Shown here piece after piece: positions 33,761 through 49,653 of a stretch of 64,000 bases of DNA. The stretch lies in assembly GCA_002500745.1 (NCBI GenBank), contig DLST01000012.1, positions 248,001 to 312,000 of the forward strand, given 5' to 3'. A model generated the notes under the pieces. The model had not been told where the DNA came from. It ran no database searches and saw nothing but the letters and a program-made list of their open reading frames with translations. The stretch's first letter is position 1. The number at the start of each line of letters is the position of its first letter. The translations under genes were made by a program, and so were the position numbers. Source of the DNA: Sphingobacterium sp. UBA7855. GTDB taxonomy: Bacteria; Bacteroidota; Bacteroidia; Sphingobacteriales; Sphingobacteriaceae.

Positions 33761-35461
33761 TTAATCTACATTATCATGTAGAAAAGAATTATTCGGTCGA
33801 ATTTCGGTATTTCCATCTTCAAAAGAAAGTGTGAAACGAGACACCTGAGACTGTGAAGAATGCGGCGTGTCTTCCAATGACATTTGCTTTCTTTTATAAG
33901 CAGGCTCATTTTCTAACTCGTGAAGACCATTAGAAGATTTTAGCTTCATACTTAACTCCTTTAAACGTAGAATTCGCTCTTTAGTGCGCACCAATTGATC
34001 TTCAAATGAAACCTGTTCTTCTTCAACCTGAGGAACTTCGACCTGTTCATTTGTCGTACTTGATGAAAATGTCGGCTTCTCCTCATATGCTGACGCTGAA
34101 GGGGTAGTATACGAATCAAAAACTGTTGGCATCTGGAATTGAAAGACAGATGGTGAAGTTTTCAATTGAAAGTCAGTATCTCCAAATGGCGTTTCTTCTT
34201 CATAATCATTATCAAATCCTAAGTCATGACGTATAACCTGTGGTTCTTCTACAGCAACATGCTGTTGTTGTACGGCATTTCTTGGTGAAGTGAACAAATC
34301 AGATTGCAAATTATTTGGAGTTGGCGTATTTGAAGAAGGAACTGGTGTATCCACACGTTGAACCGGAGTCACGAAACTATTCGTAGCTGGAACTTCTTTT
34401 GGTGCTACCTGAGAAACAGGTTTAATAAAGGAATTAGCCGGTTCAGCAGTTAAGGGCATGGACACCTTTGTATTTTCACGTTCTTTATCGCGCTCTTCAG
34501 ATGTCTGAAAACCAGTAGCAATAATTGTTACCGACAACTCATCCTCAAAGTTCTCATCAATACAGTTACCCCAAATTAAATCAGCTGACAAACCAGCTTT
34601 TTCCTGAATATAATCAGTAATGATTGCAACCTCATCCATAGTTACCTCTTTTGTCCCAGAAGTAATATTCAACAAAATATAGCGAGCTCCCTCAATTTCA
34701 TTATCTTTCAACAGCGGTGAGGCCAAAGCACCCTCAACAGCGCGCAATGCTCGGTCTTCACCTTCAGCAACAGCATTTCCCATAATGGCAACGCCACTAT
34801 CATTCATTACCGTGCGTACATCCTTAAAATCCACGTTTACATAACCGGGGATTGTGATAATTTCGGCAATACCTTTTGCTGCTGTTGTTAAAATATCGTC
34901 CGCTTTCGCGAAAGCCGCAGTCATCGTTAAATTACCAAAAATTTCGCGAAGGCGATCATTCGAGATGACCAAATAAGAGTCTACATATTTACGTAACTCA
35001 GACAACCCTTCTTCAGCTTGTGAACGACGACGTTTGCCTTCAAATGTAAATGGTGTAGTGACAATAGCAACAGTTAAAATACCCAACTCTTTAGCTGCCT
35101 TGGCCAACACAGGACTAGCGCCTGTACCGGTACCACCGCCCATACCAGCTGTTATAAATAGCATCTTTGTATTGGTACCAAGCATACGCTTGATATCCTC
35201 AATACTTTCGATCGCCGAATTTTCTCCAACATCAGGATCCGCACCAGCTCCCATACCTTCGGTTAGACTTATTCCCAATTGAACTTTATTAGGAATCGGG
35301 CTCAATTCTAATGCCTGTGCATCAGTATTACACACGATAAAATCTACCCCACTAATTCCTTGTTTATACATGTGGTTTACGGCATTACCGCCACCGCCAC
35401 CAACCCCAATAACCTTGATTATTGAAGATTGTTCTTTTAACATTTCAAACTGTATTGACAT
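33761..35461 (-). CDS. ftsZ: Cell division GTPase FtsZ
   Basis: The tubulin-like GTPase polymerises into the Z-ring at midcell. The N-terminal domain has IKVIGVGGGGGNAVNHM, NTDAQAL, the T4 signature AGMGGGTGTGASP and the T7 loop region (NVDFKDVRTVM). The GTPase core ends near residue 320; an unusually long acidic/Pro/Thr/Gln linker of over 200 residues leads to a helical segment (TKERILRLKELSMKL) and a degenerate C-terminal peptide (NNSFLHDNVD). At 566 residues it is much longer than E. coli FtsZ (383), as in other Bacteroidota. Its 140-base upstream gap to ftsA holds repeated motifs but no exact -7 box. Confidence 0.97.
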   Translation of the reverse strand: MSIQFEMLKEQSSIIKVIGVGGGGGNAVNHMYKQGISGVDFIVCNTDAQALELSPIPNKVQLGISLTEGMGAGADPDVGENSAIESIEDIKRMLGTNTKMLFITAGMGGGTGTGASPVLAKAAKELGILTVAIVTTPFTFEGKRRRSQAEEGLSELRKYVDSYLVISNDRLREIFGNLTMTAAFAKADDILTTAAKGIAEIITIPGYVNVDFKDVRTVMNDSGVAIMGNAVAEGEDRALRAVEGALASPLLKDNEIEGARYILLNITSGTKEVTMDEVAIITDYIQEKAGLSADLIWGNCIDENFEDELSVTIIATGFQTSEERDKERENTKVSMPLTAEPANSFIKPVSQVAPKEVPATNSFVTPVQRVDTPVPSSNTPTPNNLQSDLFTSPRNAVQQQHVAVEEPQVIRHDLGFDNDYEEETPFGDTDFQLKTSPSVFQFQMPTVFDSYTTPSASAYEEKPTFSSSTTNEQVEVPQVEEEQVSFEDQLVRTKERILRLKELSMKLKSSNGLHELENEPAYKRKQMSLEDTPHSSQSQVSRFTLSFEDGNTEIRPNNSFLHDNVD

Positions 35462-35550
35462 AACTTATCCCTATTTAACTTACAATGAAGATGATATCAA
35501 AATGAACCAAACCCACTATACGTAATGTAATAATAATATAATTTCAACAA

Positions 35551-35603
35551 AAGTTTTCCACATTTGTTAAATTGTGGAAAACTTCGACTTTTGTGGAAAA
35601 CTT
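35551..35603. repeat. Three copies of AAGTTTTCCACA between ftsA and ftsZ
   Basis: Perfect copies lie at 35551-35562 (plus), 35573-35584 (minus) and 35592-35603 (minus, touching the ftsA stop). Copies 1 and 2 form an inverted repeat with a 10-base spacer. The core TTTTCCACA fits the relaxed E. coli DnaA-box consensus TTWTNCACA. A fourth copy lies upstream of mraZ at 49642-49653. Confidence 0.75.
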
Positions 35604-36978
35604 ATTTTTTATCTAAAAAAGTTGCATCATCGATTTCGTTACCATCTTTGATAAAACGTTTAAACCATGATAGCAATCCTTGCTCTTTTTGTTGTTGCTC
35701 TGAAACCTCTTTTGTTGTCATCGTAGCTGTCTGCACTTTTTTCGACGGGGCGTGCATTTCTCTGCGGCTGTCTTCTTCATCCTCATGGGATTGAATTCCC
35801 TTAATCAACAAACCAATACTTGTTGCATACAAAGGACTTTTCAATTCTTCAAACAACGGTTTCGGTAAAACCTCATTCTTAGAAAGATATTCATTCGGAA
35901 AGCCGATACGACAATCTATTCCGGTAATATATTCAACAAGTTGTACTAAATGCTTTAACTGAGCACCACCACCGGTGATAACAATACCACCAATCAGTTT
36001 ATTCTCGTATCCGGAAGATTTGATTTCATAGTATACATGTTCGATAATTTCCTCCATTCTAGCTTGAATAATATATGCCAAATTTTTAACGGAAATCTCT
36101 TTGGGTTCCCGACCTTTCAATCCTGGCACACAAATCACCTCATTTTCCTTATTTTCATCAGCTAGAGCCGATCCGAAACGAGTTTTCAACAATTCAGCCT
36201 GCGAACGCAAAACAGAACATCCCTGACGGATATCTTCCGTTACAATATTACCGCCTAAAGGAATCACTGCAGTGTGACGAATAATTCCTTCATGGAAGAT
36301 GGCAACATCCGTGGTTCCACCACCAATATCTACTAATACAACACCAGCATTTTTTTCGTCTTCATCCAATACAGCTTCAGAAGACGCTAGAGGCTCGAGA
36401 ATCAATTCTGCAACTTCCAGATTGGAATTATCAATACATTTTTTGATGTTTTTAATATCAGTTACCCGACCCGATATAATATGGAAATTCGCTTCAATAC
36501 GACGACCAGCCATACCAATTGGTTCGCGAATACCCGGTTCGTTATCTACCGTAAACTCTTGAGGTAAAACATGTATAATTTCTTCTCCTGGAGGCAGTAC
36601 CAGTTTATACATATCCGAAATCAATCGTTCAATATCGCGTCGAACGATTTCATCATCACCATCAGTTTTGGTAAATATTCCACGGTGTTGAATACTTTTG
36701 ATGTGTTGTCCAGCAATTCCCACATTCACTACTTTAATATCCACATTAGACTGTGCTTCGGCTATCTCGACAGCCTCTAAAATACTTCCCACAGTTTTTT
36801 GGATATTAGCCACCACTCCACGGCTTACACCCGCAGAATCAGCTTTCCCCACACCTAATAATTCAATTTTGTTTCCTGAGCTACGTCTCCCAACCGTAAC
36901 ACAAATTTTGGTAGTACCAATATCGAGTCCCACGATAATTGGGTTTTCTCTTTCAATTTCTGCTGCCTTTGAGTTCAT
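35602..36978 (-). CDS. ftsA: Cell division protein FtsA
   Basis: The 458-residue actin-like ATPase anchors FtsZ to the membrane. It shows IIVGLDIGTTKICVTVGRR (phosphate 1), the SHS2 insertion, VVLVDIGGGTTDVAIFH (phosphate 2) and GGIVITGGGAQLKHL (adenosine). Near the C-terminus GLLSWFKRFIKD looks like the membrane-targeting amphipathic helix, followed by an acidic end. The stop lies 140 bases before ftsZ; the ftsQ stop is 25 bases upstream. Confidence 0.96.
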   Translation of the reverse strand: MNSKAAEIERENPIIVGLDIGTTKICVTVGRRSSGNKIELLGVGKADSAGVSRGVVANIQKTVGSILEAVEIAEAQSNVDIKVVNVGIAGQHIKSIQHRGIFTKTDGDDEIVRRDIERLISDMYKLVLPPGEEIIHVLPQEFTVDNEPGIREPIGMAGRRIEANFHIISGRVTDIKNIKKCIDNSNLEVAELILEPLASSEAVLDEDEKNAGVVLVDIGGGTTDVAIFHEGIIRHTAVIPLGGNIVTEDIRQGCSVLRSQAELLKTRFGSALADENKENEVICVPGLKGREPKEISVKNLAYIIQARMEEIIEHVYYEIKSSGYENKLIGGIVITGGGAQLKHLVQLVEYITGIDCRIGFPNEYLSKNEVLPKPLFEELKSPLYATSIGLLIKGIQSHEDEEDSRREMHAPSKKVQTATMTTKEVSEQQQKEQGLLSWFKRFIKDGNEIDDATFLDKK

Positions 36979-49102: not shown

Positions 49103-49564
49103 TTATAGTCCAAAATTAATATCCCCCATTACCTCTGCCGCCAAAGATGATATATCCTCTACTCCGCCATCACCCATCAATTCCTCATATCCTTCTTTTG
49201 ACCAAACCTCAATCTTATTAAACTGACAAGCCAAAACCAATTCAGTGCTTATGCCAGCAAATTCCAACAAACTTTTTGGTAACAAAACACGCCCCGCAGC
49301 ATCCAACGTTAATTCCGTAGCGCCACGCGTAAAAGCACGCACAAACGCCCGTACTTTAGGATCGAATTGATTCAATTTCGCCAGCTTAGCCGTCATCAAA
49401 TCCCACTCTTCTCTTGGATAAAATACCAGATGTTTCTCAAAACCGCGATTCACAACAAGACCATCCCGCTCTACATGAGGCATTTGCCTCTTGAGCGCAG
49501 CTGGCAACACCATCCTTCCTTTGGCGTCTAGCTTGCATTCGAATTCTCCGATCAACTGAGTCAT
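49103..49564 (-). CDS. mraZ: Transcriptional regulator MraZ
   Basis: The 153-residue AbrB-like protein has two DNA-binding motifs (IGEFECKLDAKGRMVLPAALKRQM and TLDAAGRVLLPKSLLEFAG), each with the typical D-A-x-G-R. It binds direct repeats upstream of the dcw cluster and represses it in E. coli. Exactly such repeats lie 38-62 bases upstream of its ATG. It is the first gene of the cluster. Confidence 0.96.
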   Translation of the reverse strand: MTQLIGEFECKLDAKGRMVLPAALKRQMPHVERDGLVVNRGFEKHLVFYPREEWDLMTAKLAKLNQFDPKVRAFVRAFTRGATELTLDAAGRVLLPKSLLEFAGISTELVLACQFNKIEVWSKEGYEELMGDGGVEDISSLAAEVMGDINFGL

Positions 49565-49594
49565 ATCGTCAATTATCCTATTCTAATTTAAATG

Positions 49595-49602
49595 TAAAAG
49601 TA
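49595..49602 (-). promoter_or_regulatory. Probable -7 element of the dcw promoter
   Basis: TACTTTTA on the minus strand matches TAnnTTTG at seven of eight... i.e. all fixed positions except the last. It lies directly next to the MraZ boxes and about 31 bases from the mraZ ATG. Confidence 0.45.
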
Positions 49603-49626
49603 TACACTTTCTCCCACTTTCCCCCA
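49602..49626 (-). promoter_or_regulatory. MraZ operator upstream of mraZ
   Basis: On the minus strand TGGGG, 5-base spacer GAAAG, TGGGA, spacer GAAAG, and a degenerate TGTAT sit exactly 10 bases apart (plus-strand 49622-49626, 49612-49616, 49602-49606). TGGGN repeats with 5-base spacers are the known MraZ site in E. coli. The position over the expected -33 region fits autorepression. Confidence 0.8.
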
Positions 49627-49641
49627 CTTTATAACATAAAA

Positions 49642-49653
49642 AAGTTTTCCACA
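49642..49653 (+). repeat. Fourth copy of AAGTTTTCCACA upstream of mraZ
   Basis: Identical to the motif found three times between ftsA and ftsZ; with flanks it shares 15 bases (AAAAGTTTTCCACAT) with the copy at 35551. It lies 16 bases upstream of the MraZ boxes. Confidence 0.7.

Follow-up and report, generated by a model that had tools for sequence, protein, structure and literature searches.

Predicted DnaA boxes at the ftsZ and mraZ promoters of Sphingobacteriaceae, and at the mraZ promoter of other Bacteroidia

How bacteria tie cell division to replication is largely an open question. In Caulobacter crescentus, CtrA and GcrA are the partners of DnaA at ftsZ, and in Bacillus subtilis the division gene ftsL is located in the dcw cluster. 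The C. crescentus ftsZ promoter carries two DnaA boxes and is activated by DnaA, according to work with promoter fusions and DnaA variants (Hottes 2005, as cited; Fernandez-Fernandez 2011, PMC3193534), and chromatin immunoprecipitation placed DnaA at the B. subtilis ftsL promoter (Goranov 2005, as cited in PMC8203912). Escherichia coli has DnaA boxes within ftsQA, upstream of ftsZ, which are judged inactive for ftsZ (PMC8203912, PMC3193534). At the E. coli mioC promoter the sites for MraZ and DnaA are adjacent or overlapping (PMC4446571), and the 9-mer TTTTCCACA has been reported as the DnaA box of cyanobacterial origins (PMC4674748). While DnaA is already known at ftsZ in Caulobacter and at ftsL in B. 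subtilis, no report of DnaA boxes at mraZ or ftsZ in Bacteroidota was found in those portions of the open-access literature that were searched, and the sites described below appear to be new.

These sites resemble the Caulobacter case in that DnaA boxes, here predicted ones, lie at the ftsZ promoter, and differ from it in forming a conserved array, in having mraZ as a second target, in belonging to another phylum and in being known from sequence alone. They share with E. coli a position upstream of ftsZ in the same gene cluster, and with B. subtilis the predicted presence of DnaA at the promoter of a division gene, though of a different one. In contrast to mioC, the promoter involved is that of mraZ itself and the arrangement is kept across much of a class, and the 9-mer identical to the cyanobacterial box is found at the mraZ, ftsZ and dnaA promoters as well as at a predicted origin.

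The window, i.e., the whole 64-kb stretch of Sphingobacterium DNA that was analyzed, has its dcw cluster on the minus strand. The relevant features are as follows.

33761..35461, minus strand: ftsZ (NCBIfam TIGR00065, E 6e-117)
35527..35535, minus strand: putative -7 element of the ftsZ promoter, TATTATTAC, at a fixed distance from box C
35541..35549, plus strand: box D, inverted and weak, ATTTCAACA, 13 bp from box C, first base off consensus
35554..35562, plus strand: box C, inverted, TTTTCCACA, within the 12-mer copy 35551-35562
35573..35581, minus strand: box B, TTTTCCACA, within the 12-mer copy 35573-35584
35592..35600, minus strand: box A, TTTTCCACA, within the 12-mer copy 35592-35603
35602..36978, minus strand: ftsA (NCBIfam TIGR01174, E 5.4e-112)
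49103..49564, minus strand: mraZ (NCBIfam TIGR00242, E 2.3e-32)
49594..49602, minus strand: putative -7 element of the mraZ promoter, TACTTTTAC; a similar block is seen in relatives by eye
49605..49630, minus strand: GTGGG-type repeats with a 10-bp period, the expected MraZ operator (from the sequence)
49645..49653, plus strand: mraZ-promoter box, TTTTCCACA, within the 12-mer copy 49642-49653

The 12-mer AAGTTTTCCACA has four exact copies in the window, at 35551 (+), 35573 (-) and 35592 (-) in the gap between ftsA and ftsZ and at 49642 (+) upstream of mraZ, just as the initial annotation had described; the copy at 35592-35603, the third on the ftsZ side, shares two bases with the end of the ftsA frame. 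In 100 dinucleotide shuffles the mean was 0.02 copies per window and the maximum 1, and with two mismatches allowed there is a small excess (19 in the window versus a shuffle mean of 11.09). The 15 bases said to be common to the copies at 35551 and mraZ are AAAAGTTTTCCACAT. The 9-mer core TTTTCCACA occurs seven times in the window (shuffle mean 1.43; one shuffle in 100 got to seven), including the sites at 2870, 44566 and 52939 that had been listed before. It fits the DnaA-box consensus TTWTNCACA at boxes A, B and C and at mraZ, as had been proposed, while the window's box D (ATTTCAACA) and a variant common in relatives (TTTTCAACA) do not. Box D (35541-35549) and the promoter-like element (35527-35535) are additional to the motif first noted; the match of TATTATTAC to TAnnTTTG is loose, and the promoter element is a prediction.

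Genome-wide counts of the 12-mer refer to G001, the nearest genome compared, which has 80% of the window's sampled 31-mers, and not to the window's own genome. AAGTTTTCCACA has eight copies in the 5.35 Mb of G001, three at ftsZ, one at mraZ and four scattered, compared with a single copy of the reversed pattern. Two of the scattered copies lie within open reading frames (L001, L003), one is upstream of an oxygenase-like gene (L002) and one is just beyond the end of a frame (L008). The earlier statement that the 12-mer was seen only at the two gaps is therefore true of the window and not of the genome. Spread at random through the genome, which would have counted against the motif, is not what is found, with four of the eight copies at the two gaps and one copy of the control. 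The boxes themselves are modestly enriched in G001 (565 versus 358 for the reversed pattern), where close direct pairs number 10 versus 0 and inverted pairs 5 versus 3 (36 versus 18 across 18 Sphingobacterium genomes).

From the best 80 of 268 ftsZ relatives, 78 loci with an upstream region were obtained (the contigs of L011 and L020 lack the region upstream of ftsZ and were excluded; the ftsZ of G110 is partial). The layout is shared by nearly all 78. Boxes A and B face forward, with B 18-19 bases beyond A; the inverted box C follows B by 19-20 bases, the weaker and also inverted box D follows C by 13, and a TAnTATTAC block comes last. Upstream of ftsZ, 77 of the 78 loci have three boxes within 80 bp, a grouping seen nowhere else in their 1.61 Mb; box pairs away from ftsZ number four in the same 1.61 Mb and zero in 400 kb of G001 samples. 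Across the family, in a sample of 61 Sphingobacteriaceae genomes (60 readable), at least two boxes lie within 90 bp in 48 of the 60 upstream regions and at least three in 38, and the array is present in 20 of 25 genera. No TTWTCMACA box was found before ftsZ in 10 of the 60 (five genera) and only one in another 2, and in genera g34 and g37 only A and B are left, in the same direction and without an inverted partner. The two-box array was seen before ftsZ in none of 29 genomes of other Bacteroidia families, and one box in two of them.

The 78 loci and the family-wide sample share species, and their 138 upstream regions gave 122 arrays, 104 of them distinct. The finder behind the 122 arrays gave preference to TTTTCCACA, to spacings within a set range, to ATTAC at +31 and to D at +13, so the letter and spacing counts from it are to some extent predetermined. 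A spacing test free of that preference, on 102 distinct loci chosen only for having an exact inverted pair, agrees with it: the inner gap of the pair is 10 or 11 bp in 95 loci, and in 94 the first ATTAC after box C begins at +31; 95 loci have a box-like A at -18 or -19 relative to B, and 46 have a box-like D at offset 13, with none at any of the other offsets from 10 to 25. The TA and T that precede ATTAC are conserved at 1.0, 1.0 and 0.96 in 95 sequences preselected for ATTAC. The array is position-specific and not due to chance, and the fixed position of the boxes relative to the predicted promoter element, kept in relatives, is that expected of a DnaA-regulated promoter.

With the finder's preference for TTTTCCACA in mind, box A reads TTTTCAACA in 54 of the 122 arrays, TTTTCCACA in 40, TTATCAACA in 11 and TTATCCACA in 8, box B reads TTTTCCACA in 109, and box C reads TTTTCCACA in 106 and TTATCCACA in 11. 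Box D fits TTWTNMACA in 60 of 122 arrays and adds the variants TTTTACACA and TTTTGCACA. Positions 1, 2, 4, 7, 8 and 9 of boxes A-C are nearly fixed, and the variation is at positions 3 (T/A), 5 (mostly C, some T) and 6 (C/A). Variants in relatives' arrays that fit TTWTNCACA are TTATCCACA, TTATTCACA, TTTTACACA and TTTTGCACA. Judged by its letters, the box word is the DnaA-box consensus TTWTNCACA relaxed at position 6.

At mraZ, direct GTGG-type repeats with a 10-bp period, as expected of an MraZ operator, are found at 49605-49630 and not at the 12-mer sites, and they resemble the AAAGTG[T/G] direct repeats of Mollicutes MraZ (PMC8475190). The box beside these repeats is TTTTCCACA in all 29 readable Sphingobacterium loci, which were drawn from 30 of 40 genomes. 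It is present in all 30 loci of a family-wide set that includes four Sphingobacterium, as TTTTCAACA (16), TTTTCCACA (10), TTATTAACA (3) or TTATCAACA (1). Together with the ftsZ array in 20 of 25 genera, this removes the objection, raised at the outset, that the sites might not be conserved in related Sphingobacteriaceae. Box and GTGG are 7 bases apart in 21 of the 30 family loci; in the genus set, 26 of the 29 loci have a distance of 7 or 17. In other Bacteroidia families the box was found in 22 of 26 mraZ loci (shuffled mean 0.89, maximum 5, 1000 shuffles), and 20 of these 22 are forward and end 1-4 or 12-13 bases before the GTGG of the MraZ repeats, opposite to the backward box of Sphingobacteriaceae. 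Orientation flips and place is kept, as expected of a protein site. A phylum search found the box in 3 of 21 loci outside the class, so it is not claimed beyond Bacteroidia; of six further class members drawn in that search, four have it. Nine matches without a locus were left out of the search, L184 begins 103 bases before mraZ, and L216 has only about 165 upstream bases. G083, an otherwise complete Sphingobacteriaceae genome, gave no MraZ match. In E. coli MG1655 (L396) there is a single TTTTCCACA 244 bases upstream of mraZ, a different position.

The initial annotation had tentatively suggested a common factor, possibly DnaA, and a comparison with the boxes at the origin. The GC skew of G001, read in 20 sampled 20-kb stretches, is negative in all stretches to 1.225 Mb and from 4.0 Mb, and positive in all from 1.265 to 3.72 Mb, some barely so (0.002 at 1.93 Mb). 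The sign switches at about 1.245 Mb, within an AT-rich gap that borders a nadB-like gene; dnaA is about 8 kb away. This 2.9-kb gap, between nadB-like and nadA-like genes (by eye; L136 2897-5787), is the probable origin of the Sphingobacterium group. The nadB side of the gap, retrieved as 30 loci from 40 genus genomes, has one to four boxes in 29 of the 30, mostly at four recurring places. The origin-side 1500-bp flanks hold 96 boxes in 45.0 kb, 95 of them in the first 500 bases, and since the nadB genes themselves carry 73 boxes in 46.5 kb, the enrichment is limited to those first 500 bases of the gap. When 29 gaps were aligned (without L146), TTWTNMACA was matched by 107 of the 116 cells at these four places, which were more conserved than the surrounding gap (0.914 versus 0.725). 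Their words are TTTTCCACA, TTATCCACA, TTTTCAACA, TTATTCACA, TTATTAACA, TTTTGCACA and TTATACACA, the same alphabet as the ftsZ boxes. Clustering at the organism's origin, a mark of DnaA boxes, is thus seen at the predicted origin. In one genome (G051:C1:4719782-4721383) nadB is divided among several frames and contains stops, because the gene is broken or because of errors in sequencing.

The dnaA search gave 22 loci (L112-L133), of which 12 Sphingobacterium and 8 non-Sphingobacterium ones were read for promoter boxes. TTWTNMACA boxes stand at recurring places in 11 of the 12 Sphingobacterium promoters, and in the twelfth (L113) boxes are present when read from another zero point. Variable positions 3, 5 and 6 are the same at ftsZ, at the predicted origin and at the dnaA promoter of Sphingobacterium; since origin and dnaA-promoter boxes share this form, the ftsZ/mraZ word equals that of the predicted origin, and recurrence of the degenerate box at the skew-defined origin and at dnaA supports DnaA as the probable common factor. 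DnaA is present in G001, and the C-terminal domain of the host DnaA aligns to DnaA chain 1j1v (E 3.7e-17), presumably the box-bound domain IV of E. coli DnaA. In G006:C2:816104-817493, from a genome with 7% contamination, the dnaA match extends over two frames, perhaps a sequencing error in an essential gene.

Outside Sphingobacterium, these boxes are absent from the dnaA promoter in 7 of the 8 genomes read, and the DnaA reading of the class-wide mraZ box therefore rests on the box sequence and on one possible, weakly evidenced origin. The latter is in G170, of another family (perhaps Flavobacteriaceae, a guess), which has its cumulative skew minimum at 850-873 kb and, at 862.8-863.3 kb, an AT-rich gap between rpiB-like and rnr-like genes (by eye) with two copies each of TTATCAACA and TTATTAACA. 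It gives weak support, because two more three-box groups occur in the same 410 kb and the mraZ promoter of G170 itself has no box.

From the sites, their arrangement, their conservation and their match to the origin and dnaA boxes, we infer DnaA as the bound protein and a change in transcription as its effect. The motif is quite probably a DnaA box, with DnaA binding the ftsZ array and the mraZ box and tuning their transcription with replication initiation; that DnaA binds and regulates mraZ and ftsZ is the most likely reading of these sequences. DnaA would occupy the ordered array (A and B forward, C and the weaker D inverted) that covers the ftsZ core promoter in the ftsA-ftsZ gap, and the single box directly upstream of the MraZ operator of mraZ, and its level or nucleotide state would modulate how strongly ftsZ and the division cluster are transcribed, in time with replication initiation. 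Bacteroidota promoters have TAnnTTTG at -7, with TTTG near -33 in B. fragilis, and in F. johnsoniae a -33 motif was not identified (PMC7366714, PMC9723704). If TAnTATTAC is the -7 element of ftsZ, box C would roughly cover the -33 region and box D would sit in the spacer; DnaA at C/D could then block RNA polymerase or, as an activator, replace the upstream promoter contact. With the sign undecided by sequence, there is a slight lean towards ftsZ being repressed or gated and then released once DnaA is titrated or converted after initiation. The mraZ box lies on the upstream side of the MraZ repeats, and DnaA there could either help MraZ or compete with it. Several points speak against DnaA. The box is only modestly enriched genome-wide, some members of the family have no ftsZ array, as do the other Bacteroidia families sampled, and outside Sphingobacterium the dnaA promoters read mostly lack these boxes. 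TTTTCAACA violates the strict E. coli consensus at position 6, yet sits at the origin here, and a consensus-fitting box D is present in just about half of the arrays.

A broader scenario is offered tentatively, in which the Bacteroidia mraZ promoter would be an old, composite DnaA-MraZ operator to which Sphingobacteriaceae added the array over the ftsZ core promoter, coupling being by way of DnaA as a transcription factor. If true, FtsZ synthesis would read DnaA activity directly in Sphingobacteriaceae, and across the class Bacteroidia the replication initiator would be wired directly to the start of the division cluster. Among the sampled Bacteroidia families, most have retained a DnaA-like box within the mraZ operator and one has a phased ftsZ array. 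The results suggest a direct, testable link between DNA copying and division, with concrete bases to mutate in free-living species, for instance type strains of Pedobacter or Sphingobacterium. For Sphingobacterium they also give a workable definition of the DnaA box and a predicted location of the origin.

The boxes could instead be sites that hold or recharge DnaA, similar to datA or DARS, their place beside division genes being incidental, but this is unlikely. Inverted or multi-box groups do occur elsewhere in G001 (485970, 519786 and 740217), and because two of them recur in relatives, multi-box elements with other roles probably exist. At ftsZ, however, the distance between box C and the promoter-like element is fixed (94/102), while a solitary mraZ box would make a poor reservoir and adjoins the MraZ repeats across families, and the sites remain with mraZ and ftsZ.

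Reading of the motif at both gaps by some other regulator, or by MraZ itself, would account for the mraZ box abutting the MraZ repeats, and recalls the E. coli MraZ site that overlaps a DnaA box in the mioC promoter (PMC4446571). It is improbable given that the motif is also at the origin and the dnaA promoter, that the box is mostly out of register with the 10-bp MraZ repeats (7 bases to GTGG in 21 of 30 family loci) and that its orientation flips between families. The box also varies from GTGG to GTTG where the MraZ repeats mostly hold GTGG (by eye), and the ftsZ array has no GTGGG repeats.

An RNA hairpin formed by the inverted pair B-C in the ftsA-ftsZ transcript, acting as a terminator, attenuator or processing site, was considered because the window strand folds well, into a 12-13 bp stem (z -4.5), and was rejected because matched changes are lacking inside the boxes. 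The words of B and C are unequal in 23 of 122 arrays (21 of 104 after removal of duplicates), and none has both arms altered to match within the 9-mers, so the compensatory changes expected of a stem are not seen; because B and C change independently, they are better seen as separate protein sites than as a paired stem. The flanks give a mixed picture. Over the 104 distinct arrays, outward pairing continues beyond the 9-mer for a mean of 0.85 versus 0.62 bases, more than in all 2000 shuffles (relatedness uncontrolled), four lineages have at least four extra pairs and one flank position correlates (z 4.5), but in 67 of the 104 pairing stops at the 9-mer, and the innermost flank shows anticorrelation (z -5.2). 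The excess of matching flanks is modest and could come from shared descent or from quasi-palindrome correction. With two genera holding A and B in the same direction without an inverted partner, and the same box solitary at mraZ and present also at the origin and dnaA, a hairpin is very unlikely. Chance or a low-complexity repeat, for which the AT-rich genome, the 9-mers elsewhere in the window and the one shuffle in 100 equalling the 9-mer count might be cited, is refuted by conservation and by the 12-mer shuffles, and its probability is negligible.

Other box clusters were also noticed. Just upstream of a leuB-like gene (by eye) in G001 (C1:740217-740261; L135 3001-3045) is a DnaA-like triple of TTATCCACA, TTTTCCACA and an inverted TTTTCCACA, and similar triples are found in three relatives (L092, L099, L102). 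A conserved inverted box pair around GTTATTAACA (G001:C1:519786-519818; L134 2001-2033) lies in a long stretch without large reading frames and with no Rfam match, and recurs in three relatives (L110, L141, L143). A near-perfect palindrome with four box-like sites lies near a fabH-like frame (by eye) in G011 (C3:48608-48654; L140 2609-2655).
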